Source: an uncultured Oscillospiraceae bacterium (GTDB taxonomy: Bacteria; Bacillota_A; Clostridia; Oscillospirales; Oscillospiraceae). From it: DNA of 31,968 nucleotides. Under the pieces are notes generated by a model. It was not told the origin of the DNA and did not search any database. It saw nothing but the letters and a program-made list of their open reading frames with translations. Below are positions 3,380-31,875 of this stretch, piece after piece; position 1 is the stretch's first letter; the number at the start of each line of letters is the position of its first letter. Where the stretch lies: positions 1-31,968 of the forward strand of contig CAAFFR010000077.1 of NCBI GenBank assembly GCA_900762245.1. Direction: 5' to 3'. A program made the position numbers and the translations under genes.

Positions 3380-3422
3380 TATGATAGGAATTTATACCCA
3401 ACCCAAGAAAGGAGTTCTTTCT

Positions 3423-7920: not shown

Positions 7921-10900
7921 ATGAAACGACTCATCAGTTCTCTGCTGGCGCTGTCTTTGCTGCTGTCCTGTCTGCCTATGGGCACACGGGCTGCCGGGAC
8001 CACTGTGGAGGTTCTGTACCCGTCCAGCGGCGAAAATACAGGCTCCCTGGACTCCATCTATGGCGACATGATCGCCAACTCCCCCACCCTCCCCAATCTG
8101 GAGCCCACCATTTCCGGCTCTATGGGTACTCTGGAACCCACGGTTCCCGGGGAACTTATTCCTGCGATTCCCCTTCCCACTGTGCCAAGCGGCGGACTTG
8201 CCCCTGAAACCGATGACACCCCCCCGCCACCCTGCCGATCCCTCCGGAGATTGACGATGTTCCCGCGACCGATGGCGAACTTGAGCAGGATGAGGTTGGC
8301 AACTGGTATTTCCGCACCTTTGCCCAGTTGAAGGAGCTTTGTTCTATGACCTTCGACACTCCCGCAACGGCCTATTACGAAGGTCCTGAAGATTTCATTC
8401 TTTCCGCCAATCTGGCCATTCCCGCCAATCTGACTGTGGATTTCAGCTGGATGAACCAGACGCCCGGTACTGTCACCATCCCCGCCGGCGTCAGTCTGAT
8501 TTCTGAGACCCATACATTTAATGACGAGGAATGTATGTGCGGTGCCGATGAACTGATGGATCTTTCAGCTATGTTACATGTCACCGGTCTTGCATTCCAC
8601 GCTCTGAACGTGGAAGAAAACCTGTCCGTTAAGGAAATGATGGTTTACGATTCCCTGAATGTCACCGGCAAGGTTTACAATCATGGCACCATCGAATTTG
8701 CTGACGGCGCTTCCATTTCCGGCGAAGAAAACATCATCCACAGCACAGAGGATTCTCTGCTTTACATCGAAAAACGGGCAGATGACACCGCCTCTCTGAA
8801 AGCCGCCATTGAGCTGGTGAAGTCCCAGACCACGCCTCACAAGCGCTTCAACCTGCGTCTGCTGGGCGATGTGACCATCGATGCGGATGTGACCGTTCCT
8901 GCCGGCTGTGATTTCGAGATCGGTGTTGCCTTCCTGAAGATCGCCCCCGGCGTTACCCTGGCGCTGGATACTTACACCACCATCATTTGCAACACTACGG
9001 TGGAAGGTACCCTTGTGAACAACGGCGGTATCCTCCTCCACGAGTGCTACTGGAACGCTCCCCGGGTGACCATCGCCCAGGGCGGTGCTTACCGTGGTAA
9101 CGGCAAAATCGTCATTCACGACAACAATACAAACGAATCTTCCGAGATGTTCACAAATCTCGACCTGAATCAGTTTACCATCACCGCTTCTGATCCTGCC
9201 AACCACTACTGGGTGCTGGAAAAGAAGGCTTCCTCCGATGAACTTTATCAGGATGCTGACGGCAACTGGCATTTCTTTGATTTCGATGATCTGAAGAAGC
9301 TGGCAGACAGGACCTATACCGCATACACTATCGCAAGTTACTGCGGTAACGAGGATTTGGTCATTTCTAAGAATCTTACTTTGCCGGAAAATTTGTATCT
9401 GAAGGTTCAGAATATGCAGACAGAGATTATACCAGATCCCTGTCCGGTCTGGATCTTTCCGGATTCACCGTTACCGATAATGGTGAAACGATCCTTCTCG
9501 GTTGCCCTAAACTCCCCGCCCCCACCGATCTGGAATGGGGTTATGACCATGATGCTGACAGAGTCTGGGATCCGGATACTGATAGCATTATAACTATCAC
9601 AAAACCGCTCCCCGGTTCCATTAGCTGGAAACCCGTTGAGCCCACACGAAGCAGTGCCAGAATTGAGATCTTCCGGCAGGGAGAAGAAGAACCTGTCAGC
9701 CACCATAACTGGTTCTTTGGTGATGAAGAGATTCCCGAATGGCGCAGTATCGACTCCTTTATTCTGGACGATCTGGACAGCGGCATCTATTATTTTACAG
9801 TTAAATCCAACGGTGAACCCAACAGGTACGAGGACAGCGATACCGTCACATCCCCTCTGTGGACCTATGAGCGGCCCAGTAAGCGTCTGGATGTTTGTAC
9901 TAACCTGAGCTGGAGCTGGCCCTCCGTCGAATACACAGGTCCCAGAGGCGCCGGTGGCTACCATGTAGAGTTCTGGTTTAAGGAAACCGAAAATGCAGAA
10001 CCCCAGAGCCTTGGCTCCACTTGGTCTATGTGGGTTAACGAAGGAGATATCTTCACCCCCGGCATTATCGATTCCGACATTTATCAGTGTGGTTCCGGCT
10101 ACTACTATTACACCGTCCGGGCTCTCAGCACCGATATCACCACCACCTGCAACAGCGAATGGGTCACCAGCCCCCTCTACAATCTGACAGACACCGTCAT
10201 CAAGGTAGACAAGGACCTCCAGGAAATCTCCGACAACATGGATCAGATGACCAACGGCGAGATCCGGCAGGCTGTGCAGGATATGGATACCCAGGAACTG
10301 AAGGATGCCATGTTGGCTGACTCCGGTGTTGCTGAGACCATCGACGAACTAGAGCGAAAGGCCGGTAACTTCGATAAGGTCAAGGTCAAGGATGTTTCCA
10401 TCCCCGCAGGTCAGGTAAATGTCATCGGTGCAGGCCTCAACACCCCTGCCAACAGCGACGAAGGCATCTCTCTGGTCATCAGCAAGCCTGAGAAGGAACA
10501 CGAAGTTCCCAAGGGTTATGACAGTGCCGTGGCCCTTAAGTTCTCCATGGACCTGAGCAATGTGGATAATACGGAAAAGCTGGGAGTCCCCGTGCTGATC
10601 ACAATGCCGATTCCCAACGGAATTGATCCCAGCAAGCTGGCCATCATCCATTATCACAACGACGGTACTTCTGAAATCATCTCCAAACTGAATGTGGATA
10701 AACGGAATCATACCGTCACCTTCGTCCTCACCAGTTTCTCCGATTTCACCATTACCCAGACTGCTCCTGAAGAAGAAATCCTTTGGGGCGATGCATCCGG
10801 CGATGGTAAGGTCAATGCTATGGATGCTACCCGCATCCTGCGATACGCGGCAAAACTAATCAACGAGGACAAAATCGATCTCATTGCTGCTGATGTAAAC

Positions 10901-10981
10901 AGCGACGGACGTGTCAATGCCATGGACGCGACTCGTATCCTGCGGTATGCAGCAAAACTGATCACAGACCTAAAAAAATAA
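7921..10981 (+). pseudogene. Dockerin-bearing exoprotein gene broken by two frame changes
   Basis: A paralogue of the 153-3032 gene spread over three frames. Frame one starts at ATG 7921 (AGGAGG upstream, signal peptide MKRLISSLLALSLLLSCLPM) and runs to a C7 tract at 8219-8225. The homologous sequence (..IDDVPATDGELEQDEVGNWYF..) then continues in another frame up to about 9420. The second change, near 9400-9445, joins the start of a second copy of the beta-rich block (QDADGNWHFFDFDDL) to the end of one (GLDLSGFTVTDNG). That suggests loss of about 200 codons as well as a frame change. From about 9430 the third frame encodes Fn3-like, helical and beta regions and an intact dockerin pair to the stop at 10981. 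The Cys-rich module of its relatives is missing. A sequencing error could explain the C7 shift but hardly the deletion. An alternative is an expressed C-terminal fragment, but I see no good internal ribosome site. Confidence 0.75.
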
Positions 10982-12720: not shown

Positions 12721-12749
12721 AGATTACTTCTCTACGGGGAACTTGTCAA
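12721..12749 (-). promoter_or_regulatory. Possible internal promoter for cohesin-like and sortase genes
   Basis: A perfect TTGACA (12744-12749 on the minus strand), a 17-bp spacer and a weak -10 TAATCT (12721-12726). The -35 overlaps the last codons of the giant dockerin gene. It could let the cohesin-like and sortase genes be expressed separately. The -10 matches only three of six consensus bases, so this is tentative. Confidence 0.35.
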
Positions 12750-15700
12750 TCAGCTTGACGCACTTGCGCAGGATCTGAGTAGCATCCATAGCATTGATCT
12801 TGCCGTCGCCATTGACATCAGCGACACAGCGGTGGACCTGATCAGCATCAACCAGCTTGGTAGCGTAGCGCAGGATACGGGTAGCATCCATTGCATTGAC
12901 GCGGCCATCCCAGTTGACATCGCCCCACAGGCCGTTGCACTTGGGAGCCAGCTTGACGGTCAGGCTTACCTTAATGCCGTCCAGAGTGACCTTGACGCCG
13001 TAGCCACGGTAGTCAACAGCTGCATCGTGGTATGCGATGTCGCCGTCGATGGTGAAGGTAGCAGCGCCGATTTCAGCATGGGGGTTAGCCAGCTCGGACA
13101 GAGGAGCGAAGCGGTCGGTCTTGACCTCGATCTTAGCCAGGACCTTGCCTGCGCCCTTCTGGAACAGGTCATAGTACTCGTTCAGAGTTTCGACCTCAGA
13201 CTTGGACAGCTTGACGTTTGCCTTGGCAGCCAGAGCAGCGAAGTCCCACTCCTTAGCCTCAACAGCCTTCTTGATAGCGCCGAAGAAGTCGCCAACGGTA
13301 ACAACTGCCATAGCATCGTTCAGATCCATGATGCAGCCGTCCTTAACCATCTTCATGGTCAGCTCTTCGCTGGAGAAGGCCAGCAGAGCAGCCAGCATAC
13401 GGTTGTAGTTGCAATCGCGGGAGAAGTCCAGAGTGACATCGGTGACAGCGCCGCCGCCAATGTTCAGCAGATCATTAACGACCTTGGGCTGATGCAGGTC
13501 GAACTTAAAGTCGTTGACCCAAACAGTAGCAGCCAGGTAATTCAGAACAGGCAGGACCTTGTTCTTGTTGTTGCCGGAGAACTTGATGCCGACAGTGTAG
13601 CTCTCAGCCTTGGAAGCGTCGGAAACGATACCAGCAGTCAGGTAGTCGCCGTCAGCAACATGCTTCAGACCCAGATGCCAGGGAGCGGTGGTGAACTTGT
13701 AGGAGACCAGCTCAGTGCCGTTCTTGACAGCGTCGCGAACTGCACGGAAGTCAGTCAGATCCATAACAACCTTGCTCAGGAAGCCGTCGATGCCGCCAAC
13801 CTTATCGTTGTCGAAGTTACCGAAGCGGTACAGAGCCAGGACGTCGTTGACCAGGTTAGCAACCTTGTCCTTGTTGGAGGGGCTGCCGACCATACCGACC
13901 AGATCGTCGAAGGCAACAGCGAAGATGTCGTAGTTCTGGCCATCAGCAGCGACAGACAGAGCAGCGGTGGTGTAGTGGTTCAGGATCATATCCAGGCCGA
14001 TCTCAGCTGCCAGGTAATGGACAGCGGGCAGATAGCCTTCCACATAGTTCTCGTCGAACAGCTTGTCGGTTTCGATGGTGTACATTGCGCCATCTTCAAC
14101 AGTGTACAGAGCGTTCAGAACGTTACCGTTCTTCTGGTAGTAGCCGTCAGGCAGCTTATTGGAGACATCCTTAGCATAGTAGCCAGCCAGGATAGAGACA
14201 TCGCCCTTGACGTTGCCCATAACCTTAGCGCCGGAAACAGTGTTGCGGGAAGAATCCATGATAACCAGCTTGGAGCCGGTGTAGTTGATGTCGCCCTTAA
14301 CGGTCTGACCGTTCAGGTCGATGATAGCAGTCTTGCAGCCCAGGTTGATGGAGTCAACCTCATCCAGCAGGATGATGTAGGCAGCGCCAGACAGGTCAGC
14401 GGAGTTCAGATCCTCGACGAAGTCAACGATGTTGTTAGCCCAGTTCATAGCGGAACCATGGTTTGCAACATTGATGACAGCAGCCTCGTAATCCTCGTTA
14501 GCATCCAGCAGGGTAACCTTCATGTTGACATTCAGGTTGCCGCCTTCCTTCAGCTCCTTGATCAGAGCATCAGCAGTCAGGCCGCCCATCAGCTCGGTGT
14601 TGGACAGGTCGATACCGACCATGCTGACAACCTTGTTGATGTGCTTGTCCAGTGCAGTGATCTCGATGGTGGTGTTCTCTTCGTTGCCGTTGATCAGCAG
14701 GTACTCGCTTGCCAGAGTAGCCTTCAGCAGATCGTAGTAGGGCTTGTCAGCCAGCTCGATGTCAGCACCCAGCATCTTCAGGGTGTTCTCGAAGGACTGT
14801 GCAGTGACAGCCTCGTTGTCCAGAATCAGATGCAGGTAGTCATAGACGAACTGGTAAGCAACCTTGTTGCTCATGGCGTTGATGTCGATCTTGGACAGTT
14901 CCTTGGTACCCAGCATAGCAGTCAGGTAAGCCTCGTAAACGGCCTCGGGCAGATCCAGGTCGATTTCCATAACGCCATTATTGGAGTTGAAGCGGATGTA
15001 GCTCTTGGCAGAGTTCAGGCCGTTGGCCAGAGTAGCCATCTGAGCAGGAGTGGAAGTCAGATTCAGAGTGAAGGGGTACTCCAGAACCTTTTCGAAGCCG
15101 GAAACCTTCATGGACAGGGTGGTCTTCAGCAGCTTGCCGTTACCATTGTTGCCCAGGTCGATCAGAGTCTGATGAGAGAAGGTCTTGTCTTCCAGCATTG
15201 CATCGATCAGAGCCTGGATAGAAACTTCCAGGCCATCGGTTTCACCCTCGGAAATTGCACGGGCTTCCATGTTGCCGGAGGTCATGAAGGTATGACCATT
15301 GAAGGCAATGTAGCTTGCACCGTACTCCATCATCAGGTCGGTAACCAGACCCATGACACCAGCCTGATCGCCGCTCATGTTAGCAACCAGCTCCAGCTCA
15401 CCCTTTTCATTTCTGACGGGCTCGATGACGCAGGGATCAACAGGTGCGGGCTGAGTGGGAGCTTCGGGCTCAGTGGGCTCGGTGGTTTCACCGGGCTGAG
15501 TGGGCTTGGGCTCAGTGGGCTTGGTGGTGGGAGTAGTGGGCTTGAACAGCTCTTCCAGGAACTTATCGGACTCGTTAACAGCGATGCGGCTGATAACGTA
15601 GGTGCCGTTGGTGAACAGCTTGTTCAGCTGCTCAACAGTGAAGGTGTACTTATCAGCGGTGATCTCGTCCACGCCGTCGATGGTGTACTCGTAAGCGTAG

Positions 15701-18594
15701 TCAGGATCGTCGTGCTTGGGCAGCTCGATAGTACGGTTCTTGTAGGTAATGTACTGGTCCTTAGCACCTGCAATCTTAATGGTGTAGGTCTTGACGGTCC
15801 AGTCATAAGTAATGGTGGGTCTGGTGGACAGGTGCTCACCAACCAATGCATCCAGATCAGCGGAGGTGCTCAGCTTGTAGAAGCCAACATTCTCAGCGCC
15901 GACAGCCTCAGCGATGAAAGCATCGAGCTCTGCCTTCAGAGTCTCAACCTCAACAGCGGGCAGGATGCCCTTCTCCTGAACGTTGGTGGTGAAGGTAGCG
16001 GACTTGTCTCCGACAGTGGCGATAACCTGAACGTAAACCAGGGAAGCATCGGTAGCCATCAGGCTATCGGAAACAACATAGGGAGAAGCAGCCAGCTTGT
16101 TGCTGTCGCCTTCCTCGTACTCAGCTTCCAGAGCCTCGATCAGAGCGGGGATCTCGTTGCTGTTGGTGTTGATCAGGGCGTTGGGTGCAGTCAGGTTGGT
16201 CCGGACATAGTCCAGAGTACCCTGCAGGTCATTGATCTGCTCAGCAACCTGGGGGAAGCCTGCGACGTTGCACAGGATCTTCAGAGCTTCCTCTTCCTCG
16301 ACCATGGCATCCAGATAGCCAGCCAGAGCGTTGACTTCAGCGATCAGATCAGCTGCGTTGGTGCCGGTGTAGTAGAACTTCAGACCGCCGGTGTAAGCAT
16401 CCAGATATGCGGTCATGTAGTTGTAGATCTTCAGGTACTCGTTCTTAGCCAGATGGCCGTCGATGATGGCACCAACGGTATCCTGGAAGTAGCCCTGCAG
16501 ATAAACGTTACGCTCGTCAGTCTTGGTGTCATCGCCGGGAGTGAAATCGGTAACACCAATAACGGCATCCAGACCTGCCAGCTTGACCAGGTTCAGCTGA
16601 CCCATGGTCTCATAGTTGTTAGCCAAGCTGTTCAGAACTTCCACATGGCCAACTGCATCAGCCTTGATCTGATTAGCAGCATTCAGCAGCTCTTCAACGC
16701 ACTCAGCGGAGAAGTTGGTCAGATTCAGGATGTACTGGACCTTAACAGCCTTCTGGTTCCAGTCAGCGGTGTTGCCGGAGAACTTGTTCTCGGTGCCATT
16801 GCCGCCGTAGGTGTAGGGAGCCCAGCTCAGGCCCTTGTAGTCAGCAGGATAGCTGCCTTCAGCGGTCAGAACATTGTTCTCCAGAGCCAGCATAGCGTCG
16901 GAGTCGGTGGGATCGGGCTTACGGTAGCTGATGGTCTCATTGCCCTTCAGAGCGCCGGACTTCAGAATAGCGCTGGTGCTCTTGCTGCCATAGTTGTCGG
17001 AGACAACAGTGTACAGGTCAGTAACGTTATAAGCCTTGCCAGCCTTACGGGAGATTTCGGTCTCGCCGGTAATGGTGATGTTTTCACCCTGAGCATATGC
17101 CTCGCCATTGACGGTGTAGTCATAGGAGTTGGCAGGATTCTCATGGACGGGCAGAGTCATAACATAGCCGTAGGGATAGCCAGCGGGATCAGAGTAGTTG
17201 GTAACAACCACGAAGTCCTTGGGGCCATAGACGTACTTGAAGGTAGCGTCCTTAGCCAGTGCGTCCTCTTCGTGATCGCACTCAACGGACTTCAGCTCAT
17301 AGTACTCAGCGGGCATGAGCTCAGCCCAGGTAGCGAAGATCTCAGCAGCGGTAGCATCAGCACCGGCCTGGATCTCAGCCATGTTGGTGCCGATAGCCTT
17401 AGCATAGGAGTTGCTGCCGTCGCAAACCAGAGTCAGCTCGTAGCTGTCAACTTCGTTAGCAATAACGAAACCGCGAACCTCAACATTGACGTTAGCCATG
17501 TTCAGGTTAGCCTGAATGGTGGTGGTAGCAACGGTCACAGGATCGGTAACATTGACATCAACCTTGGTAACCAGACCTTCCAGCTTAGCGAAGTCAGTGC
17601 CTTCGTTGACCAGATTGGTAGTAGCCCAATTGTTGCCGGAGATGGGCTCCAGAGCGGAGACAACACCACCGATGATGTCCTTCATGGCCATCCACTGGGT
17701 GTAACCAGCTTCATCGTTGGCCTTCAGGTAGGAGTCAACAGTTGCGTGGTTCAGGTACTTGTCGGTGCTGATAGCCTTCAGGTTCTTGTAGGTCTCAGCA
17801 ACCTCATCGCAGAAAGCTGCACCGTTGGTGTACAGGTACTGGGTCTTGTATTCTGCATTGTTGTAATCAGAAGACATGACATCCAGATCCATCTTGCCGC
17901 CGTTGGCATTGATCTCGGCATCCAGTGCGTAAACTGCTGCTGCAGCCTCGTCACCCAGCTTATAGGTTTCCTCGGTGCCGAAAATCTCGATGGTCAGGCC
18001 CTCAGCCAGCTGCTTCAGAACGCCGATAGCGCCTGCGATGTTGCCCAGCTTACCCTTGGTGCCTTCGTAGGCAGCGCTCATGTTGTTCAGGCTGGCAACC
18101 ATGTTGTTGGCAGCATTGAACATGACGCTAGCCATCTGGGACAGGCCGAGAGGCAGCTGATAGTCAACCTCAACAGAGAAGGTGTTGCCTGCGTAAGAGT
18201 AATTACCCTCAAAGCAGCCCTTTTCTGCGTTGTAGGTCAGCGCAACCTCTTCCACAGTCTCGCCAACAACTCTTGCGACGGAGGGTACCCAAGACTGCTG
18301 GAAAGGCTTTGCGGTAATGGTCTTGCTTGCGGTGTCAACAGCGACCAGCTCATCGCTGCTGTCGGGGATACTGTAGGCGATAACCTTATCACCATACAGG
18401 TAGCCGGATTTCAGCAGTGCAGCTTCTGCATCAGACATTTCAAACTTGTCTGCCAGCAGAGCGCCCAGCTGGACGCCAGCATCCGTAGCTGCGGATGCAT
18501 TCAGTGCCAAGCCGGGCATGACGTTAGATGCGCAAAGCACCAATGCCAGAGCCATGGCCAGGAACCGCGTCAGGAACGTAGTTCTTTTTGTCAT
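12724..18594 (-). CDS. Giant secreted two-repeat protein with dockerin pair
   Basis: A 1956-residue exoprotein. The ATG at 18594 has GGGAGG upstream and opens a long signal peptide (MTKRTTFLTRFLAMALALVL). Residues about 45-1015 are two diverged tandem blocks of roughly 450-500 residues. Each block opens with a LLKSG/ILKSG..L.G....Y..PD motif and ends with a Y-(D/E)-Y-T-(V/I)-(N/D)-G segment. A Thr/Pro/Glu linker lies at about 1018-1055. After it comes a region with a beta-helix-like stretch (TAIIDLNGQTVKGDI). A dockerin pair (about 1889-1956) closes the protein. I recognise no enzyme family and no catalytic motif. It is followed 40 bases downstream by the cohesin-like gene, which may bind this dockerin. 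It has its own promoter and a structured leader. It could be a large adhesin or scaffold-like surface protein, but that is a guess from size and architecture. Confidence 0.88.
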   Translation of the reverse strand: MTKRTTFLTRFLAMALALVLCASNVMPGLALNASAATDAGVQLGALLADKFEMSDAEAALLKSGYLYGDKVIAYSIPDSSDELVAVDTASKTITAKPFQQSWVPSVARVVGETVEEVALTYNAEKGCFEGNYSYAGNTFSVEVDYQLPLGLSQMASVMFNAANNMVASLNNMSAAYEGTKGKLGNIAGAIGVLKQLAEGLTIEIFGTEETYKLGDEAAAAVYALDAEINANGGKMDLDVMSSDYNNAEYKTQYLYTNGAAFCDEVAETYKNLKAISTDKYLNHATVDSYLKANDEAGYTQWMAMKDIIGGVVSALEPISGNNWATTNLVNEGTDFAKLEGLVTKVDVNVTDPVTVATTTIQANLNMANVNVEVRGFVIANEVDSYELTLVCDGSNSYAKAIGTNMAEIQAGADATAAEIFATWAELMPAEYYELKSVECDHEEDALAKDATFKYVYGPKDFVVVTNYSDPAGYPYGYVMTLPVHENPANSYDYTVNGEAYAQGENITITGETEISRKAGKAYNVTDLYTVVSDNYGSKSTSAILKSGALKGNETISYRKPDPTDSDAMLALENNVLTAEGSYPADYKGLSWAPYTYGGNGTENKFSGNTADWNQKAVKVQYILNLTNFSAECVEELLNAANQIKADAVGHVEVLNSLANNYETMGQLNLVKLAGLDAVIGVTDFTPGDDTKTDERNVYLQGYFQDTVGAIIDGHLAKNEYLKIYNYMTAYLDAYTGGLKFYYTGTNAADLIAEVNALAGYLDAMVEEEEALKILCNVAGFPQVAEQINDLQGTLDYVRTNLTAPNALINTNSNEIPALIEALEAEYEEGDSNKLAASPYVVSDSLMATDASLVYVQVIATVGDKSATFTTNVQEKGILPAVEVETLKAELDAFIAEAVGAENVGFYKLSTSADLDALVGEHLSTRPTITYDWTVKTYTIKIAGAKDQYITYKNRTIELPKHDDPDYAYEYTIDGVDEITADKYTFTVEQLNKLFTNGTYVISRIAVNESDKFLEELFKPTTPTTKPTEPKPTQPGETTEPTEPEAPTQPAPVDPCVIEPVRNEKGELELVANMSGDQAGVMGLVTDLMMEYGASYIAFNGHTFMTSGNMEARAISEGETDGLEVSIQALIDAMLEDKTFSHQTLIDLGNNGNGKLLKTTLSMKVSGFEKVLEYPFTLNLTSTPAQMATLANGLNSAKSYIRFNSNNGVMEIDLDLPEAVYEAYLTAMLGTKELSKIDINAMSNKVAYQFVYDYLHLILDNEAVTAQSFENTLKMLGADIELADKPYYDLLKATLASEYLLINGNEENTTIEITALDKHINKVVSMVGIDLSNTELMGGLTADALIKELKEGGNLNVNMKVTLLDANEDYEAAVINVANHGSAMNWANNIVDFVEDLNSADLSGAAYIILLDEVDSINLGCKTAIIDLNGQTVKGDINYTGSKLVIMDSSRNTVSGAKVMGNVKGDVSILAGYYAKDVSNKLPDGYYQKNGNVLNALYTVEDGAMYTIETDKLFDENYVEGYLPAVHYLAAEIGLDMILNHYTTAALSVAADGQNYDIFAVAFDDLVGMVGSPSNKDKVANLVNDVLALYRFGNFDNDKVGGIDGFLSKVVMDLTDFRAVRDAVKNGTELVSYKFTTAPWHLGLKHVADGDYLTAGIVSDASKAESYTVGIKFSGNNKNKVLPVLNYLAATVWVNDFKFDLHQPKVVNDLLNIGGGAVTDVTLDFSRDCNYNRMLAALLAFSSEELTMKMVKDGCIMDLNDAMAVVTVGDFFGAIKKAVEAKEWDFAALAAKANVKLSKSEVETLNEYYDLFQKGAGKVLAKIEVKTDRFAPLSELANPHAEIGAATFTIDGDIAYHDAAVDYRGYGVKVTLDGIKVSLTVKLAPKCNGLWGDVNWDGRVNAMDATRILRYATKLVDADQVHRCVADVNGDGKINAMDATQILRKCVKLIDKFPVEK

Positions 18595-18750
18595 TTTTTG
18601 ACCTCCCATTGTACGTGTGCATCCCGCACACTTAATGTTCGCTCGCCGCCGTAGACTGTAGCCGGTCCCTTTCGGGGTACATGCATGGGTCGCACCAGAT
18701 ACATGGCTACCCCGTAAAAACGGCATAGTCATACTACGGCCATAGAGTTT
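18595..18750 (-). ncRNA. Structured 5' leader of the giant dockerin gene, class unknown
   Basis: Between the promoter and the start codon the minus-strand RNA can form a closing stem GCCGUAG/CUACGGC (18734-18740 with 18648-18654). Inside it lie a CCGU/ACGG hairpin (18712-18723) and a stem GUAGCC/GGCUAC (18705-18710 with 18658-18663). Within that second stem are a six-pair stem (18699-18704 with 18681-18686) and a CCC-GAAA-GGG tetraloop hairpin (18667-18676). A further hairpin (18615-18631) ends eight bases before the ribosome site. This nested layout resembles a riboswitch or other cis-regulatory RNA. I could not match it to the c-di-GMP, c-di-AMP, SAM, cobalamin or TPP consensus from memory. 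Confidence 0.4.
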
Positions 18751-18757
18751 CATGGTC

Positions 18758-18786
18758 AGTTTACCACATTTCTTTTGGTAATGCAA
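18758..18786 (-). promoter_or_regulatory. Promoter of the giant dockerin gene
   Basis: Minus-strand TTGCAT (18781-18786), a 17-bp spacer ending TGTGG, and TAAACT (18758-18763). Its first spacer bases (TACCAAAA) are the same as those of the pilin promoter at 31663-31691. Confidence 0.6.
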
Positions 18787-18898
18787 CCATTTTTCTTTCA
18801 CAAATCCATAAATTTTCCATAGTCTTTCTTGTTGATATTTCACATAAGCCGACATCTGTTTACCGTTTTCGACTTGTGGTGTATCAAAACTATTTGAC

Positions 18899-18971: not shown

Positions 18972-20009
18972 TTATACCCAGTTCAGTACACCATAGCCAA
19001 GGATGCGTCCATCATCCAGGGCATAGACCCTGCTGGCCACTTCGCCGTCAGCGTTGCCCTCGATGGTACGGACGGTACCATTTTCAACTGCGGTGACTAC
19101 GCCCACATGCTGGGGAAATTTGGCATTATTTTCCACCCAGTCGAAGAAAATAATATCGCCGGGCTGAGGATTCGAGGTTTTCCAGCGGTCAATGGGGAAG
19201 GAATTCACAAATTCCTCCACATGAGCGTACTTTGGGACAGTCAGCAGATTTTCACTGCACTGCTCCAGCGCCCAGGAAACAAAGCAGGCGCACCAGGGAG
19301 TTTCCTGGTTCCAGCCGGGGTTACTGTCATAGCCGCCGATGTACCATTCGGAGAAGTATTCCCCAGTGGTAAGGCTTGCTCCGGTGCTTCCCTTCTCCGC
19401 TTCCAGAACGGAGAGGAAATTCTTCCGAGCCTCGGCATGAGGGATGCGGGTCCAGTCGGTGGATTGGGGTTCGGAGGAGGTTCTGCGGAGAGAGAAAGCT
19501 GCAGAAGCAGATTCTGGTGCAACCTGAGGTTGCGCTTCCTCATCCTTTTTCTCTGTTGTTGGTGTCGGGATTTCTTCCAAGCGGCGGCAGTAGACCGAGG
19601 TGGCATATTCGCCCTTTTCGGTCTTGACTGTCAGCATCAGCAGATCGCCGGACAACTTTGCGCTGGAATCTTCAACAGCTTCCATAAGTACTGTTGCAGT
19701 ACCGGAATATATAGCGTCCTGTTCCGCTGAGTATGAAAATAATGGTTCTTTCGAACTATCCGCTTTAATTTCCTGTACTACCCAGCCATTTGAATCCTCT
19801 ACCACATCAATCAGCTTTTCTGAAGCCAGCTTTTCCATCACTTCCAACACAATGCGAACCTCATTCTGCTTGATAGTGATATCGGTACCCTGCTTATTGA
19901 TGCGGATATAGCTCAGCAAGGTGGTGGTGGCTGCCAGCATGACTACGGAAGCCACTGCCATAGTCACTACCAGTTCCACAAGGGTAAAGCCGTGATTTCG
20001 TTTCTTCAT
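18972..20009 (-). CDS. Minor pilin-like protein fused to a CHAP hydrolase domain
   Basis: A 345-residue fusion. The ATG at 20009 overlaps the stop of the previous gene by one base and has AGGAGG upstream. The N-terminus is a class III prepilin signal (MKKRNHG, cleavage before FTLVE) with the usual hydrophobic helix and Glu at +5, and the first 150 residues look like a GspJ/PilW-type minor pilin. A Glu/Pro/Ala/Ser linker (about 150-210) leads to a CHAP domain (about 215-345). Its likely catalytic residues are Cys240 (in PWCACFVSW), His301 (in PQHVGVV) and Glu317/Asn319 (in TIEGN). By family, CHAP domains are peptidoglycan amidases or endopeptidases. Place in the operon, after GspI-like and GspK-like genes, suggests it sits in the pilus tip complex. 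It could open the cell's own wall for the pilus or act on other cells. Pilin-CHAP fusions are not something I know as a standard T4P part. Confidence 0.88.
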   Translation of the reverse strand: MKKRNHGFTLVELVVTMAVASVVMLAATTTLLSYIRINKQGTDITIKQNEVRIVLEVMEKLASEKLIDVVEDSNGWVVQEIKADSSKEPLFSYSAEQDAIYSGTATVLMEAVEDSSAKLSGDLLMLTVKTEKGEYATSVYCRRLEEIPTPTTEKKDEEAQPQVAPESASAAFSLRRTSSEPQSTDWTRIPHAEARKNFLSVLEAEKGSTGASLTTGEYFSEWYIGGYDSNPGWNQETPWCACFVSWALEQCSENLLTVPKYAHVEEFVNSFPIDRWKTSNPQPGDIIFFDWVENNAKFPQHVGVVTAVENGTVRTIEGNADGEVASRVYALDDGRILGYGVLNWV

Positions 20010-25319: not shown

Positions 25320-26072
25320 TTACAGCCCGAAGAGGCTCAGGTATGCGGAAATCAGCGGCTGGCCCACCAGCGCGGAGAACCAGATTCCCGCAGCCAGGTA
25401 AGGACCAAAGGCAAGCTTGTGGCCTGCGCCGCCCTTCATACGGATGGAATGGATCACGGCACCGGAGACACTGCCCACCAGAACTGCCAAAATCATTTTT
25501 GGCCAGCCCAGCAGCAGTCCCGCGGCGGCTACCAGCTTTACATCACCCATGCCCAGTCCGTTGCCGCCGGTAAGAATATGCAGCAGCAGGAAGACCAGAC
25601 TGACAGAGGCCATACCTATTATATAAGTAGGCCAGTTGGCGAAGTCCGTGGCGAGCCGCACCAGACCCAGTACAAAAATCGTCAGGTTGATGCCGTTTGG
25701 AATAATATAGGTACGCCAGTCAATGACCGACAGAACCAGCAGCATGGAGAAGAGGCCGCAATACAGGGCCACAGTCAGCCAGTCCCCTTTAAAGAGTACC
25801 GCCGTCAGCAGCCACATGCTGCCGTTGAGGGCCTCCACAATGGGGTACTGGGCGGAGAGCCTGACGCCGCAGCTGCGGCACTTGCCGCCCTGGGCTACCC
25901 AGCTGAACACCGGAATCAGCTCATACCATTTTAAAGGATGACCGCAGCTCATGCAGTGGGAAGGAGTCTTCACGAACTCCTGTTCCAGAGGAATGCGGTA
26001 AATCAGCACATTCAGGAAGCTGCCCACGCACAGGCCCAGCAGTAAAGTCATTATATAAATTGGAAATTCCAT
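25320..26072 (-). CDS. pilD: Prepilin peptidase
   Basis: A 250-residue membrane aspartic protease of the A24 family. The N-terminal zinc-binding loop has both Cys pairs (Cys40/43 and Cys65/68). The two catalytic Asp residues are Asp118 (in VIDWRTYIIPN) and Asp177 (in GLGMGDVKL). Several membrane segments follow. It removes the short leader from the prepilins of this locus and N-methylates the new first residue. AAAGGAG lies seven bases before ATG 26072. Only 49 bases separate it from pilMN. A fold-back element lies immediately upstream. Confidence 0.96.
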   Translation of the reverse strand: MEFPIYIMTLLLGLCVGSFLNVLIYRIPLEQEFVKTPSHCMSCGHPLKWYELIPVFSWVAQGGKCRSCGVRLSAQYPIVEALNGSMWLLTAVLFKGDWLTVALYCGLFSMLLVLSVIDWRTYIIPNGINLTIFVLGLVRLATDFANWPTYIIGMASVSLVFLLLHILTGGNGLGMGDVKLVAAAGLLLGWPKMILAVLVGSVSGAVIHSIRMKGGAGHKLAFGPYLAAGIWFSALVGQPLISAYLSLFGL

Positions 26073-26294: not shown

Positions 26295-27512
26295 TTACAG
26301 ATACTGGTCGTAAGCCTTGGTCATGTTCATCATGGGCAGGTAGATGGCGACAACCAGCAGGGCAACCATGATGCCCAGGAACACGGTGATCATGGGTTCC
26401 ATCATGCCCAGCAGGGCCTGGGTTGCCTCTTCCACTTCGTCATCGTAGTAGTCGGCAGTCTTCAGCAGCATGCCCTGCAGGTCACCGGTTTCTTCACCGA
26501 TTCCGACCAGATTGTAGACCATGGGAGGGAACAGCCCCGTATCCCGCAGAGAGGCGCTGAGGGTCCAGCCCTCGGACACCATGGACCGGCAGGTCTGAAC
26601 GGCCTCCTGATAATAGATGTTGCTCATATTCATGGCCACCATTTCCAGACTGTCCGTCAGGGTCAGGCCGGAGCCCAGCAGCAGAGACAGGGTGCGGCAG
26701 AAGGTTGCGCACTCGGATTTGATGGTCATATTGCTGACCACCGGGATCTTCCGGGTGAGCCAGCCGAAGAAATGCTTGCCTTTGTTGGTCTTGTTGAACA
26801 TCACAGCGCCAGCCACCAGTGCAATCAGCACAAGGGCCACCAGCCACCACCATTCCACAAACCAGTTGCTCACGCCCATGACGATTTTGGTGGGCAGAGG
26901 CAGTTCCATATTCATCTCCGCAAAGCTGGAAATGAAGCCGGGGAAGACCTTGACCATCATGATGATCAGAACGATCACCATGACAATGAGCACGATGCAG
27001 GGATAGGCCATGGCCTTTTTCACAGCCGCCTTGGTACGCTTGGCCTTGTCGAACCAGTCTTCCATCTGGCCGAAGGATTCTTCCAGATTACCAGATTCCT
27101 CACCGGCGGCGATCATGTTGCACAGCATGCTGGAGAAGATCTTGGGGTGCTTCTTCATAGAGCCCGCCAGGGTTTCGCCCTTTTCGATACCTGCCTGCAT
27201 TTCGCGGACGGCAGCCGCCAGCTTGGCGTTTTCCGTCTGCTGGCCCAGCATGTTCAGAACATTGGATACCGGCACGCCGGCCCGGAGAATGGACCGGAAC
27301 TGGCGGCAGAAAATAGCCATATCCTTGGGCTTGGGATTGCCCAGGAAGGGCAGCTCAATATCTTTATTCAGAGCGTTCAGCTCTTTGATTTCCAGAATGG
27401 TATAGCCTGCGGAGCGGAGGGAGTTTTTGGCAGTCTCAATGGAGGCGGCCTCTATATTATCCTTCACCCGCTTACCCATGCGGTTTACCGCAATGTAGCT
27501 GAAAGAAGCCAT
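26295..27512 (-). CDS. pilC: Type IV pilus inner-membrane platform protein
   Basis: A 405-residue GspF/PilC protein of normal family length. It has two repeated cytoplasmic helical domains (GVPVSNVLNML..GIEKGETLAGSM and GLTLTDSLEMV..GWTLSASL), each followed by membrane segments. The ATG at 27512 has GGGAGG upstream and follows the pilT stop by three bases. PilC links the PilB and PilT motors to the growing pilus. Confidence 0.95.
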   Translation of the reverse strand: MASFSYIAVNRMGKRVKDNIEAASIETAKNSLRSAGYTILEIKELNALNKDIELPFLGNPKPKDMAIFCRQFRSILRAGVPVSNVLNMLGQQTENAKLAAAVREMQAGIEKGETLAGSMKKHPKIFSSMLCNMIAAGEESGNLEESFGQMEDWFDKAKRTKAAVKKAMAYPCIVLIVMVIVLIIMMVKVFPGFISSFAEMNMELPLPTKIVMGVSNWFVEWWWLVALVLIALVAGAVMFNKTNKGKHFFGWLTRKIPVVSNMTIKSECATFCRTLSLLLGSGLTLTDSLEMVAMNMSNIYYQEAVQTCRSMVSEGWTLSASLRDTGLFPPMVYNLVGIGEETGDLQGMLLKTADYYDDEVEEATQALLGMMEPMITVFLGIMVALLVVAIYLPMMNMTKAYDQYL

Positions 27513-27515
27513 AAA

Positions 27516-28574
27516 TCAAAACCTCCCGCAAAGGTTACGCAGATTCACAGGGTCGTTGGCAACAGCCAGTGCATTGTCCATAGCCACCTGGCCGGAGCGG
27601 ACCAGTTCTGCCAGAGCATCATCCAGCAGCTGCATGCCCTGCCGCTTGCCGGTCTGCATGGCGCTGGCAATCTGGAAGCTCTTGTTCTGACGGATCAGGC
27701 TGCGGACCGCAGGGGTTGCAACCAGAATCTCATAGGCTGCCACACGGCCGCCGCCCACTCTGGGAAGCAGGGTTTTGGCAACGGCATATTCCAGCACATC
27801 CGCCAGCTGGATACGGATCTGCTCCTGCTGTTCGGGAGGGAATACGTCGATGATACGGTCAATGGTGTTGGCAGCGCCCTTGGTGTGGAGGGTGCCGAAA
27901 ACCAGGTGGCCGGTTTCCGCCGCGGTAATGGCGGTGGAAATGGTCTCCAGGTCACGCATCTCACCCACCAGGATCACGTCAGGGTCCTGACGCAGCGCTG
28001 CACGAAGACCGGCGGCAAAGCTGCCGGTATCGTCGCCCACTTCACGCTGGTTGATGATGCACTTATCTGCCTTGTAGACAAATTCGATGGGGTTTTCCAG
28101 AGTAATGATGTGACGGCGGCGGGTATGGTTGATGTGGTCCAGCATGGCTGCCAGAGTGGAGCTCTTACCAGAGCCGGTGGGACCCGTCAGCAGCACCAGT
28201 CCACGGGGCTTTTCCGCCATTTCAATGAAGATGTCTCCCATGTCCAGACCCTTGATGGAGGGGATCTTCAGGGGCAGCATACGCAGCGCCAGGGCGGTAT
28301 GGCCCTGCTGGTAGAACGCGTTGCAGCGCATACGGATAGTGCCTTCAAAGGTGACTGCAAAGTCGGCTTCGCCGGTCTCTTTCAGGGCCTTCATCTGGTT
28401 ATCATTTGCCAGCACCCGGACAGCGGAAGCAATATCTTCCTCAGTCAGAGGGGTGTCGGTGGCATCCACCAGGTCGCCGTCGATGCGGTAAATAGGAGGC
28501 AGACCCACCGTCATATGAAGGTCGGAAGCATCCTGCTTTACCGCGTTATGAATGATTTCACTTAAAATTTCCAT
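27516..28574 (-). CDS. pilT: Pilus retraction ATPase
   Basis: A 352-residue hexameric ATPase. Walker A is GPTGSGKS (131-138), Walker B is DVILVGEMRD (199-208), and the His box is GHLVFGTLHT (222-231). The last two are PilT-like and the length is typical. It has no N-terminal MshEN domain. The start overlaps the ribosome site region at the end of pilB. Its presence suggests retractable pili, hence twitching, adhesion under load or DNA uptake. Confidence 0.95.
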   Translation of the reverse strand: MEILSEIIHNAVKQDASDLHMTVGLPPIYRIDGDLVDATDTPLTEEDIASAVRVLANDNQMKALKETGEADFAVTFEGTIRMRCNAFYQQGHTALALRMLPLKIPSIKGLDMGDIFIEMAEKPRGLVLLTGPTGSGKSSTLAAMLDHINHTRRRHIITLENPIEFVYKADKCIINQREVGDDTGSFAAGLRAALRQDPDVILVGEMRDLETISTAITAAETGHLVFGTLHTKGAANTIDRIIDVFPPEQQEQIRIQLADVLEYAVAKTLLPRVGGGRVAAYEILVATPAVRSLIRQNKSFQIASAMQTGKRQGMQLLDDALAELVRSGQVAMDNALAVANDPVNLRNLCGRF

Positions 28575-28576
28575 CT

Positions 28577-30295
28577 TTACTCCTCGGAAGGGGTTTTATT
28601 GATCTGCTCATAATCTTCCACGGAGATGGCGTACATCTCGGTCAGAGCAGTGGTGCCGTCCAGCACCAGACGACGGACACTCTGCTTCAGGGTCAGCATG
28701 CCTTCGTCGATGGCAGTGTCCCGGATGGTATCCGTGGGGGCCCGGCCTGCGATCATGCCGCGGAGCCGGGGGGTGATTTCCATAATTTCATAAACACCGA
28801 TTCGTCCATAGTAGCCGGTGCCGTTGCAGCGCTGGCATCCTACGGGTTCGAAAATGGTCTGTCTTGCCCGGTCCTTGGCAGGAATCTTCAGGTAATCCGC
28901 CTCGTGGGGCAGCATTTCCCGCTCCTTGCGGCAGTGGGGGCACAGACGGCGGACCAGACGCTGGGCGATGATGCCCACAGTGGAGTCCGCGATCAGGTAG
29001 CTCTCAACACCCATGTCCAGCAGACGGGTGACGGAGCTTGCGGTGTCGTTGGTATGCAGAGTGCTGACCACCAGGTGGCCGGTGATGGAAGCCTGGACGG
29101 CGATGGACGCAGTCTCGCCGTCACGAATCTCACCGATCATGATGATATCCGGGTCCTGACGCAGAATGGAGCGCAGGGCATTGGCGAAGGTCAGTTCGGC
29201 TTTGACATTGACCTGGACCTGATTGATGCCCTCGATGTTGGCTTCCACGGGGTCCTCAACGGTGACGATGTTCACTTCGTCATTGTTCAGTTCGCTCAGA
29301 GCGGTGTACAGGGTGGTGGACTTACCGGAACCGGTGGGGCCGGTGACCAGCACGATGCCGTTGGGGCGGGAGAGAATTTTATCGAATTTTTTAAGATCCT
29401 CATCGGACAGGCCCAGCGCCTTCTTGCTGCGGGACAGAGCCTTCTTCTGGTTCAGTCGGAGAACGCATTTTTCACCGTAAACGGTGGGCAGAGTGGACAC
29501 ACGGATATCGTAATCCTTCCGGTCCACGGTATAGGTAAAGCGGCCGTCCTGGGGCTTTCTCTTTTCGGAGATATCCAGACCGCTGACGATCTTAATACGG
29601 GCCACGATGGCGCTGAGCAGTCTCAGGTTATAGTTGGCGGTGGTGTACAGCACGCCGTCCACACGGCAGCGCACCCGGACCCGGTCCGGCTCGGCTTCCA
29701 CATGAATATCGGAGGCTCTCTGACGGACCGCCTGCTCCACCATGGAGTTGACCAGCATAACCACAGGGGAAGAATTGACGTCCTCGCGAAGGATCTCCTC
29801 CTCCAGAGAAGTCTCTTCTTCATTGTCCCGGGTGTACATATCCACGGCTTCCTGCATTTCCTCGGTGCCGTAGTAGCGGTCGATGGTCAGCATGATGTCG
29901 GTGACAGTGGCAAGGTAAGCCTTCACCCGGCATTTGGTAGAAATCGCGATCAGATCCCGGCCCCGGATGTTCATGGGGTCGTTCATAGCCACCAGCAGCG
30001 TGCCGGGGTCATTTTCGTCGAAAGCGAAAGGCAGCATCACCTGTTCCCGCAGGATATCGGCCCGAACGATCTGGCGGACCTCCATGGGGATCGCCTGCTC
30101 ATACAGCCGGACAACAGGCATCCGGTAAACGGCAGACAGGGCATCGGTCAGCTGTTCTTCGGTAACCTGACCGCCTTCTGCCAGCAGTTCCCGGACGGAT
30201 TTTCCGGTCTTCTGATATTCTGCGCGGACTTTCTCCGCCTCAGCCTGAGTCAGCAGGCCCTGTTCCAGCAAATATTGCAGTAATTTCTCGTTCAA
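28577..30295 (-). CDS. pilB: Pilus extension ATPase
   Basis: A 572-residue assembly ATPase. I place the start at TTG 30295 (MNEKLLQYLLEQ), since AAAGGAG lies eight bases upstream. The ATG further upstream at 30352 lies in repeat DNA and adds an unlikely leader. An N-terminal MshEN-type domain (about 1-145) is followed by the ATPase core. Walker A is GPTGSGKS (319-326), Walker B is DIIMIGEIRD (383-392), and the zinc cysteines are 452/455 and 487/490. MshEN domains can bind c-di-GMP in some families; whether this one does is unknown. Confidence 0.95.
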   Translation of the reverse strand: MNEKLLQYLLEQGLLTQAEAEKVRAEYQKTGKSVRELLAEGGQVTEEQLTDALSAVYRMPVVRLYEQAIPMEVRQIVRADILREQVMLPFAFDENDPGTLLVAMNDPMNIRGRDLIAISTKCRVKAYLATVTDIMLTIDRYYGTEEMQEAVDMYTRDNEEETSLEEEILREDVNSSPVVMLVNSMVEQAVRQRASDIHVEAEPDRVRVRCRVDGVLYTTANYNLRLLSAIVARIKIVSGLDISEKRKPQDGRFTYTVDRKDYDIRVSTLPTVYGEKCVLRLNQKKALSRSKKALGLSDEDLKKFDKILSRPNGIVLVTGPTGSGKSTTLYTALSELNNDEVNIVTVEDPVEANIEGINQVQVNVKAELTFANALRSILRQDPDIIMIGEIRDGETASIAVQASITGHLVVSTLHTNDTASSVTRLLDMGVESYLIADSTVGIIAQRLVRRLCPHCRKEREMLPHEADYLKIPAKDRARQTIFEPVGCQRCNGTGYYGRIGVYEIMEITPRLRGMIAGRAPTDTIRDTAIDEGMLTLKQSVRRLVLDGTTALTEMYAISVEDYEQINKTPSEE

Positions 30296-30339
30296 AGTAA
30301 GGTCTCCTTTCGCCGGATGCGAATGAGGCAGGGAATGCC

Positions 30340-30455
30340 TCGCCCCCCGCATTTATGAGGGGGGTGGCCCGCAGGGCCGGGGGGAGCCGGATTCACACTC
30401 CCCCAGTCACCGCGCTTCGCCGGTGACAGCCCCCTCGCAAGCGCGGGGGCCAAGG
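30340..30455 (+). repeat. Structured intergenic repeat in the pilB leader
   Basis: A GC-rich segment sharing the order of blocks with the tandem repeats at 31751-31968 (TCGCC..GGTGGC, then ACTCCCCCAGTCA, then a TTCGC loop, then GCCCCCT..GGGGGCCAAG). It is the most diverged of the three copies. It lies in the roughly 225-base untranslated leader of pilB, between the promoter and the TTG start, and so may be transcribed. Confidence 0.65.
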
Positions 30456-30524
30456 CGGCTGCGCCGCAGCTCTATCCATAAGCCTATTTTCAGAAATAGC
30501 ATAGTGATACTTATATACCGTACC

Positions 30525-30553
30525 ATACTACCACATTCCGCCAAAAATAGCAA
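30525..30553 (-). promoter_or_regulatory. Promoter of the pilB operon
   Basis: Minus-strand TTGCTA (30548-30553), a 17-bp spacer ending TGTGG, and TAGTAT (30525-30530). The layout matches the pilin and dockerin promoters. It suggests that pilB and downstream genes have their own transcript, separate from the two pilin genes. Confidence 0.55.
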
Positions 30554-30617
30554 TACCTTTTCTCAATATCCTGTGGCTAAGGAAGTTTTTTCCACAAAAT
30601 ATAGGAAGCGGCCTACG

Positions 30618-30758
30618 CCCTCCCCTTTGGGGAGGGGGGACCGCGTAAGCGGTGGGAGAGGTGCAGTACCTATGCGCCGATCCCCATTGCATTTAGGCGA
30701 ACTGGTACTGCCCTCTTCCGTCAGCCCTTCGGGCTGCCACCTTCCCCAAAGGGGAAGG
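30618..30758 (-). repeat. 141-bp structured intergenic repeat, copy 2 (inverted)
   Basis: The reverse complement of the element at 3171-3311, the same length with scattered substitutions. Both terminal hairpins and the central segment are kept. It lies between the pilA terminator and the pilB promoter. Confidence 0.8.
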
Positions 30759-30784
30759 CATTTGACGCGCCCCCGCCCCAATAC

Positions 30785-30817
30785 GCAAAAAATCCCCGTC
30801 CGGCGAACCGGACGGGG
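30785..30817 (-). terminator. Terminator of the pilin genes
   Basis: A perfect 10-bp GC-rich stem (CCCCGTCCGG with its complement, 30794-30803 and 30808-30817) around CGAA, followed on the minus strand by ATTTTTT. It lies about 40 bases after the pilA stop, so the pilin pair forms a separate transcript. Confidence 0.85.
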
Positions 30818-30858
30818 GAGTTTTCGGTAAAAGGGGAAGTTAAATTAGGGAATGGCAA

Positions 30859-31248
30859 TTAGTTACCAGCCTGCCAGCTGTTCTCAGGGGTCCACTTTGC
30901 GCCTTTAGTCTGATATTCACTATGCTTTGCAATTGCATTCTTCAACGTGGTAGCATCGCCACCATAGAGCTCCTCAAACAGCGTCATTGTATTTGTACCC
31001 AGAGGGGCAATAGTTACATCGCCATCAACACCAACCATAATACTGGTCACGTTGATCCCCTCATAGGCAGCCGCAGCTATGGCCGCCACATGGACAGCAC
31101 GCAGTTCCACATTGGCAGCAGTATCACTGGCCTTGTCAATATAGCCAGAGTAAGCAGGAACGGCAACAGCTGCAAGGATAGCTAAAATTGCAATAACAAC
31201 TATCAGTTCAACCAGAGTGAAACCACCATTAGATTTTAACGTATTCAC
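30859..31248 (-). CDS. pilA: Type IV pilin, probable major subunit
   Basis: A 129-residue prepilin from the GTG start at 31248. An upstream TTG at 31266 is in frame but overlaps the best ribosome site (AAAGGA), so I reject it. The leader MNTLKSNGG precedes FTLVELIVVIAILAILA, with Glu5 present. The body (about 95 residues) ends NSWQAGN and has no cysteines. It follows a shorter pilin gene with an almost identical N-terminus. Its normal length and place just before a strong terminator favour the major pilin role. Confidence 0.88.
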   Translation of the reverse strand: MNTLKSNGGFTLVELIVVIAILAILAAVAVPAYSGYIDKASDTAANVELRAVHVAAIAAAAYEGINVTSIMVGVDGDVTIAPLGTNTMTLFEELYGGDATTLKNAIAKHSEYQTKGAKWTPENSWQAGN

Positions 31249-31281
31249 AGGCAAAAATCCTTTCAATCAATTATTTTAATT

Positions 31282-31313
31282 GTCCCCCATTCGATGTAAC
31301 TCGAATGGGGGAC
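31282..31313 (-). other. Strong hairpin between the two pilin genes
   Basis: A perfect 13-bp stem (31282-31294 with 31301-31313), loop of 6, in the gap between the short pilin stop and the pilA start. No T-run follows on the minus strand, so full termination is unlikely. It could stabilise the short pilin mRNA or cause partial termination. Confidence 0.6.
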
Positions 31314-31333
31314 AAAAATAACTTTACCTTTAA

Positions 31334-31585
31334 TTAGTTTGTACGGGCATCCTCTTCGATGTACATATCGGCTTCTGCAGCGATTGTTTCCATAGTTGCT
31401 TCGGCCAGTGCGTCGTTAGCAGCATCCAGAACATCAGAGTAGTGAGACTTAACCTGATTTTCTGCCTCACCAGCCTTCTCAATGTAGCCGGAGTAAGCAG
31501 GAACAGCGATACCAGCCAGGATAGCCAGAATTGCGATAACAACGATCAGCTCAACCAGAGTGAAGCCGCCATTAGACTTGAACAT
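31334..31585 (-). CDS. Short type IV pilin-like protein
   Basis: An 83-residue prepilin. The leader MFKSNGG and helix FTLVELIVVIAILAILA match pilA, but only about 50 acidic residues follow (rich in Glu and Ala, predicted helical), too few for the usual pilin beta-sheet. ATG 31585 has AAAGG upstream. It may be a truncated duplicate of pilA or a small subunit made mainly of the helix. It is the first gene after the pilin promoter. Confidence 0.82.
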   Translation of the reverse strand: MFKSNGGFTLVELIVVIAILAILAGIAVPAYSGYIEKAGEAENQVKSHYSDVLDAANDALAEATMETIAAEADMYIEEDARTN

Positions 31586-31662
31586 AATAAATCGTACCTT
31601 TCATTATAAAATTTTTTACGCCTGGGAACTGGGTAGTACCCTGATGCGCATATTATGGCATT

Positions 31663-31691
31663 ATATTACCATAATCGTTTTGGTAGCGCAA
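31663..31691 (-). promoter_or_regulatory. Promoter of the pilin genes
   Basis: Minus-strand TTGCGC (31686-31691), a 17-bp spacer starting TACCAAAA and ending TATGG, and TAATAT (31663-31668). It lies about 80 bases before the short pilin start. Confidence 0.6.
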
Positions 31692-31750
31692 TTGGCAGAA
31701 ATGACAATTTTTACCCCATGGATTCAGCAATAATATCACACTTTTCGCCC

Positions 31751-31875
31751 TCGCCTCCCTCTCTGAGGGAGGTGGCACGGCGCAGCCGTGACGGAGGGAG
31801 TGTCCTATCCCAGGAACGCCACTCCCCCAGTCATGCTGTTCGCATGACTGCCCCCTCACAGAGGGGGCCAAGATC
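31751..31875 (+). repeat. 125-bp tandem repeat, unit 1
   Basis: Contains three inverted repeats: CTCCCT/AGGGAG at the start, AGTCATG/CATGACT around CTGTTCG, and CCCCCTC/GAGGGGG at the end. The next unit begins exactly 125 bases on. Both lie upstream of the pilin promoter. Confidence 0.85.

Follow-up and report, generated by a model that had tools for sequence, protein, structure and literature searches.

How does a type IV pilus leave a cell that has one membrane and a thick wall? A possible answer lies in a stretch of 31,968 nucleotides (the window) from contig CAAFFR010000077.1 of an uncultured Oscillospiraceae bacterium. One of its genes encodes a type IV prepilin in which a prepilin signal, a GspJ-type minor-pilin module, a disordered linker, and a CHAP domain, predicted to be a peptidoglycan hydrolase, follow one another; it ends a type IV pilus operon, directly after the genes for I-type and K-type minor pilins. 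A previous reading from the letters alone (the sequence-only reading) had proposed that such a pilus, if the protein enters the tip complex, would carry a wall-cutting enzyme on its end. Our favoured reading, held with slightly better than even confidence, is that the tip, while it assembles, opens the cell's own peptidoglycan and in this way lets the filament out through a secretin-less wall.

The gene is a single frame that runs without interruption from an ATG start over 345 codons. The product opens with the class III signal MKKRNHG/FTLVE, with glutamate at +5 as in type IV prepilins, and the Pfam family N_methyl matches residues 2–27 at 35.3 bits (cut-off 21.2), in agreement with the prepilin signal described earlier. 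Compared with about 5.8 billion proteins, the window protein had 5353 matches; of the 120 that were listed, 110 carry precomputed N_methyl and CHAP calls. Identity to the window protein runs from 97% down to 33%, and, P0094 excepted, the relatives align with the greater part of its length. Of the ten without an N_methyl call, the four that were aligned (P0049, P0061, P0107, and P0118) still have a visible prepilin signal; the database name of such proteins is "CHAP domain-containing protein". An alignment of the window protein and 37 of the 120 listed relatives (A1, 38 rows) has Gly7 and Glu12 invariant, as do another set (24/24) and 18 further CHAP-bearing loci outside A1, picked by operon and often more distant. 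A profile search of genome contigs confirmed 455 relatives, and full-length fusions make up 12 of the best 80 that were kept (loci L001–L012). Because the same two domains recur in 110 of the 120 listed protein clusters, and in 12 genome loci, no frameshift was missed, and we reject a frameshift, a chimera, or an annotation or assembly artefact; that two genes were joined by error has a vanishingly small probability.

The C-terminal part matches the Pfam CHAP family at residues 235–319 (50.6 bits, cut-off 26), and its model matches structures of CHAP and NlpC/P60 enzymes, consistent with a papain/NlpC-type fold. Foldseek with the full model found Ly7917 at an E value of 1.4e-4; a sequence search of the PDB with A1 returned no CHAP chain, just the N-terminal helices of other pilins at E 0.02–0.08. 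The cysteine of CHAP domains has a catalytic role. Cys240, His301, and Asn319, at the positions that the sequence-only reading had given, are conserved in all 56 sequences checked (38 in A1 and 18 further loci), as is Glu317 in 55 (38/38 and 17/18, with Asp in L011). Cys242 is invariant in A1, yet present in only 14 of the 18 further loci; because Thr or Leu replaces it in L009, L010, L012, and L115, we rule it out as a member of the active site. By these counts, conservation covers the residues on which catalysis depends in this family and leaves out the nearby cysteine. When four distant relatives were scanned against PF05257, L009 and L127 scored above the cut-off, and L085 (23.1 bits) and L010 (21.2 bits) below it.

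Both the modelled fold and the conserved residues support a predicted peptidoglycan hydrolase domain. To this extent the earlier claim of a hydrolase-bearing pilin stands; hydrolysis itself is a prediction, and the CHAP domain of PrgK, which has the catalytic residues, shows none in vitro (PMC11323569). PrgK thereby lends some weight to an alternative in which CHAP is a peptidoglycan-binding or regulatory module, serving as a tip adhesin or wall anchor instead of a cutter. Modular pilins with a tested or predicted function are mostly binders (PMC8179133), and two peptidoglycan-hydrolase proteins of conjugation have been proposed as adhesins (PMC11067333). Conservation of Cys240, His301, and Asn319 in every sequence while the linker and the pilin head drift argues otherwise, and we consider a binding module unlikely. 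Between the window and L001 (one pair), the ratio of nonsynonymous to synonymous substitution rates is 0.05 for the pilin helix, 0.25 for the head, 0.40 for the linker, and 0.08 for CHAP; by this measure, CHAP is under purifying selection and, at 0.08 against 0.25, is held more strictly than the head.

The pilin module is modelled as a helix (residues 10–62) followed by eight strands (67–140). When this module was modelled alone, GspJ-type chains ranked first in the VIA second look, with a gap to everything else, and it is on this comparison that the choice of a GspJ fold over other pilin folds is based. Foldseek with the module alone gave nothing at E ≤ 0.001 and no pilin among the 50 matches listed. 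The curated GspJ profile TIGR01711 stays below its cut-off (11.8 against 64.85 bits), as does the ComGF equivalog NF041002 (27.1 against 80), the best non-generic NCBIfam match. The stretch 143–195 spans 31–104 amino acids in the 38 A1 sequences and is richest in Ala, Glu, Ser, Thr, and Pro. With an N-terminal pilin module and a non-pilus functional domain in one protein, the gene product is a modular pilin.

In the GspI-J-K complex (structure 3ci0), the tip is capped by a K pilin that lacks Glu5, with J next to it. Here Glu at +5 is absent from all 19 aligned K pilins, while the I and J pilins of the window have it. Since the module matches GspJ-type chains first, the CHAP domain should, going by the model, sit in the tip complex; the placement that had been put forward conditionally thus gains support from the fold of the pilin module together with the neighbouring I and K pilins. 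Minor-pilin complexes are found at the tip of several type IV filaments (PMC10191384, PMC12153270).

The gene order is tight and recurrent. The K gene shares one base with the CHAP pilin gene and overlaps the I gene by four, and related genomes keep the CHAP pilin slot at the operon end, after the minor pilins. A K pilin lies directly upstream in 12 of the 12 fusion loci (a fragment in L008), a PilO gene in 10 (the contigs of L008 and L011 start too late), and PilT is in the operon in seven (the other five contigs start too late). With PilB, PilC, PilD, PilM, PilT, and, by position, PilO, and with a secretin in none of 22 related genomes (6 of 14 controls), the system resembles a monoderm type IVa pilus. 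The "complete" operon of the sequence-only reading is borne out for PilB, PilT, PilC, PilD, PilM, PilO-like, and I and K genes, and is complete in the monoderm sense only; the names I and K come from matches below curated cut-offs. The PilO-like protein matches nothing above cut-off in Pfam or NCBIfam. Only N_methyl and CHAP pass the Pfam cut-offs in the fusion protein and its neighbours are pilus genes, which sets it apart from the wall hydrolases of conjugative type IV secretion systems. Feature coordinates are collected in the table.

Table. Features of the CHAP pilin gene and of the adjoining pilus operon, in positions of the window (aa, amino acids; ORF, open reading frame).
Feature	Position	Strand	Basis
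GspJ-type minor prepilin with C-terminal CHAP domain, 345 aa (whole gene)	18972..20009	-	sequence, Pfam, relatives, model
Prepilin leader, residues 1-7	19989..20009	-	sequence; cleavage presumed after Gly7; Glu12 is the Glu at +5
GspJ-type pilin module, residues 8-142	19584..19988	-	models; GspJ-type structure matches; weak ComGF profile match
Flexible linker, about residues 143-191	19437..19583	-	model, confidence score pLDDT < 50 at 146-180
CHAP domain, residues 192-344	18978..19436	-	Pfam PF05257; structure matches to CHAP and NlpC/P60 enzymes
Cys240 codon, presumed catalytic	19290..19292	-	conserved 38/38 (A1) and 18/18 further loci
His301 codon, presumed catalytic	19107..19109	-	conserved 38/38 (A1) and 18/18 further loci
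Glu317 to Asn319 codons, presumed to complete the site	19053..19061	-	conservation
K-type minor prepilin without Glu at +5, 187 aa	20009..20572	-	weak PilX_N, GspK, ComGE matches, all below cut-off
I-type (ComGE/GspI-like) minor prepilin with Glu at +5, 125 aa	20569..20946	-	N_methyl over cut-off, ComGE below
PilO-like assembly protein, 259 aa	20988..21767	-	position, shape, homology with sister operons
PilM homologue with further segments (PilN-like part presumed), 1167 aa	21767..25270	-	PF11104 PilM_2 over cut-off at 39-165
Prepilin peptidase PilD	25320..26072	-	PF06750 and PF01478 over cut-off
Platform protein PilC	26295..27512	-	PF00482 T2SSF over cut-off
Retraction ATPase PilT	27516..28574	-	TIGR01420 over cut-off, 462 bits
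Extension ATPase PilB	28577..30352	-	PF00437 and MshEN over cut-off
Small prepilin, possible major pilin	30859..31248	-	N_methyl over cut-off; GTG start, ORF-list start is TTG at 31266
Second small prepilin, 83 aa	31334..31585	-	N_methyl 35.4 bits

Several features of the neighbourhood stand apart from these questions. The PilM homologue has a stretch rich in Thr, Pro, and Glu, and sister-operon frames with a PilM part range from 492 to 1577 amino acids. The very short second prepilin lies in tandem with the other small one, both before PilB, and by eye repeated intergenic elements resembling inverted repeats surround the two genes (30400-31968, minus strand). Four type I dockerin proteins adjoin the operon (153-3257, minus; 3381-7751, plus; 10028-10981, plus; 12724-18855, minus), one of them also with BspA-type leucine-rich repeats, transglutaminase, and CAP domains; the one that comes after the CHAP pilin has 2043 amino acids and a relative in the same place in L001. 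The commonest downstream family is another prepilin, large (385–569 amino acids), related, without any other Pfam domain, and present after the CHAP pilin in six loci (L003:11094-12251, L005:11997-13490, L006:7012-8721, L007:11966-13531, L011:1905-3233, and L012:11207-12799, all on the plus strand).

In the mechanism that we favour, PilD would cleave the prepilin after Gly7, and the J pilin would form, together with the I and K pilins, a priming complex for assembly that stays at the tip. On its linker of some 35–50 residues, CHAP would swing around the tip and cut the cell's own peptidoglycan, at stem peptides or amide bonds, while PilB drives the filament out. The tethered hydrolase would be among the first parts to touch the wall and, because of the tether, would make a hole only at sites of pilus building. 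Pili measure ~6 nm and wall pores are about the same size (sizes quoted in PMC13192262); pili of such size could pass similarly sized pores. As secretin is absent from the 22 related genomes, the filament would meet peptidoglycan directly. Among proteins of at least 80 amino acids, the loci have no downstream candidate for an immunity gene in common, which further favours passage of the cell's own wall. That this is a self-drilling type IV pilus, a tip-complex subunit being the wall-opening enzyme in one bacterial lineage, we rate as an even chance.

A Lysozyme_like domain is present in five of nine non-pilin CHAP relatives scanned. Genes for PrgI and a TraG-type ATPase lie just upstream in L043 and L021, with a coupling protein of a type IV secretion system also in L043, whose lysozyme part matches the solved Tn916-like putative cell wall hydrolase 4hpe; in L014, the sole upstream open reading frame scanned is not of this system. 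Conjugation-type CHAP proteins are thought to open the donor's wall. Such hydrolases of Gram-positive type IV secretion systems (PrgK, CwlT, Tn916-like) resemble the present protein in having a related CHAP domain and in opening the wall for an envelope-crossing machine, and differ in having a Lysozyme-like or SLT domain beside CHAP and no prepilin signal. The main function proposed by its authors for PrgK is making space in the donor's wall (PMC11323569). The precedent for a pilus is LytF of S. sanguinis, likewise a CHAP enzyme, which promotes the exit of the competence (type IV) pilus through the wall, but is a free secreted protein with Bsp repeats and not a pilin; LytF increases the amount of extracellular ComGC, its Cys-to-Ala mutant and the deletion transform alike, and supplied from outside it gives no help (PMC13192262). 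EssH of the staphylococcal type VIIb secretion system is also a dedicated CHAP hydrolase of an envelope machine, in this case as a separate protein recruited to the complex of another secretion system (PMC13059805).

Two points weigh against passage of the cell's own wall: the inactivity of PrgK in vitro, and sister operons with the same pilin and no CHAP, in five genomes in all (G159, G053, G203, G142, and G421), which presumably form pili. Among 200 genomes drawn from the family of G001, 97 match A1 at E ≤ 0.001, many of them only through CHAP; the full-length fusion is present in five (G001, G031, G170, G099, and G160), and in four (G159, G053, G203, and G142) the same slot holds a J pilin that ends near the linker start. 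Across the order, 16 of 295 genomes match the pilin module at 1e-8, four with CHAP (G001, G031, G299, and G351), three without it in a like slot (G053, G142, and G421), and nine through other pilins; the minor-pilin genes of G421 are separate from its other pilus genes. The family of G011 yields one match in ten genomes, G011 itself, and wider draws with A1 at 1e-35 yield two of 391 in the class (G001 and G031) and two of 299 in the phylum (G001 and G011). With so few carriers at each of these ranks, the fusion has a narrow distribution.

Among database proteins with this pilin module, possession of CHAP seems to be the rule: nine CHAP-less proteins lie below 1e-20 against 110 listed with CHAP, counts that come from searches of differing method and scope. 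The CHAP-less search used 23 pilin modules (A2) on candidates of ~78–248 amino acids, scored the 7996 that share most words, and found 14; among the nine, P0123 and P0131 are short, lie on short contigs, and may be fusion fragments. P0135 carries PF11612, the family of type II secretion protein J. The divergent pilin module of L127, as query, matched two proteins, both with CHAP. In the CHAP-less sister operon of L116, two genes follow the J pilin (4531-5091 and 5315-5926, plus strand), whose products by eye resemble signal peptidase I and TasA/camelysin.

The trees bear on how the fusion arose. A CHAP tree was built from 143 domains, thinned at 75% identity to 74 (36 pilin, 38 other) over 140 columns, without L020, L044, and L075 (partial) or L028 and L102 (no match). 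The 36 pilin domains together with L015, whose N-terminus lies outside its contig, are split from the 37 others with branch support 100/98; many other forks have no resolution. In the tree of operon proteins (20 rows, midpoint rooting; L139 omitted by choice; L008, L010, and L011 have fewer than three of the six genes), two changes are needed: L143/L144 and L142, without CHAP, fall outside, and L116, also without it, falls among the CHAP operons without resolution. One CHAP clade is not rejected (approximately unbiased test, p-AU 0.373). An earlier 22-row tree, in which the branch of L139 is very long, required three changes. A single gain, whether or not accompanied by a loss, would fit these trees, and as the pilin CHAP domains form one group, the simplest reading of the sequences would be one old fusion, then inheritance with the operon.

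This inheritance also bears on a rival use, in which the pilus reaches neighbours or prey and its tip enzyme degrades the wall of those cells, to kill them, free their DNA, or gain nutrients. A tip-borne enzyme is well placed for attack, and CHAP enzymes of the CbpD/LytF type have long been regarded as fratricins (PMC13192262, PMC5069739). With PilT in seven of the 12 operons, most such pili could retract, and ComEC, present in 11 of 11 genomes, could allow uptake of the DNA set free. Unlike diversifying toxins, however, CHAP is strongly conserved and forms one group inherited with the operon; among 19 CHAP loci, three with almost no downstream sequence, no conserved adjacent immunity-like gene was found (proteins of at least 80 amino acids). 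The CHAP pilin is also kept, with PilB, in G170 and G099 (L112 and L113), closely alike and perhaps incomplete genomes, where PilT was found neither in the operon nor in the genome at 1e-60. We therefore judge attack improbable. PilT was likewise not found in three of the five CHAP-less genomes (G159, G053, and G421) and was found in the other two, a pattern to which we attach no weight.

A further proposal is that the fusion serves DNA uptake, as the J/ComGF subunit of a competence pilus whose enzyme widens pores for the return of a DNA-loaded tip. The ComGF match noted above points this way, as do a ComEA-type match above its cut-off in 11 of 17 carriers of the fusion (15 of 22 genomes when those without CHAP are counted too) and the DNA binding of ComGD-ComGF in S. 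sanguinis (PMC12153270). Exactly one PilB-type ATPase above 400 bits is present in 11 of the 17 carriers (two in four, none in two), which would make this pilus their sole competence candidate. ComEC, although present throughout, says little, because its model also matches 10 of 14 controls, E. coli included; moreover, the PilM, PilO-like, and PilT proteins mark a type IVa-like system and not a Com pilus, and G170 and G099 seem to be without PilT. As the purpose of the fusion, DNA uptake thus appears very unlikely, but this proposal overlaps passage of the cell's own wall and is compatible with it. Among the uses that the sequence-only reading had offered, we favour passage of the cell's own wall; DNA uptake fits with the evidence, and attack has less support.

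With 264 architectures in InterPro by 2021, modular pilins are already known (PMC8179133), and the CHAP-bearing J-type pilin is a new variety of them. PilB/vWA and PilC/lectin of S. sanguinis share with it the prepilin signal, the linker-joined non-pilus C-terminal domain, and the role of minor pilins of monoderm type IV pili; here the grafted part has a peptidoglycan-enzyme fold instead of being an adhesin, and the pilin module is J-type. Modules named in that article include adhesion modules and the S74 and M26 peptidases, and "hydrolase" is absent from its main text (PMC8179133). In the titles and abstract openings of the articles listed by searches of the open-licence PMC literature, we found no description of a CHAP-bearing pilin or of a type IV family filament with a peptidoglycan hydrolase subunit; pilin fusions with other wall hydrolases, sought in passing only, did not turn up. 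GspJ/XcpW/EpsJ of type II secretion and ComGF of the Com pilus share the prepilin signal, the helix and beta-sheet head, and the I-/K-type neighbours, GspJ being part of a diderm system with a secretin; these minor pilins are not known to have an enzyme domain.

How pili pass the thick wall of one-membrane bacteria is little understood, and this fusion points to a pilus that may make its own passage. A single protein here combines the enzyme with a tip-type pilin, where the LytF study could only suggest, as its authors do, that the hydrolase may associate with the pilus (PMC13192262, 2026), and the relatives without the enzyme are natural controls. If the self-drilling reading is true, wall opening would be tied to where and when each filament is assembled.
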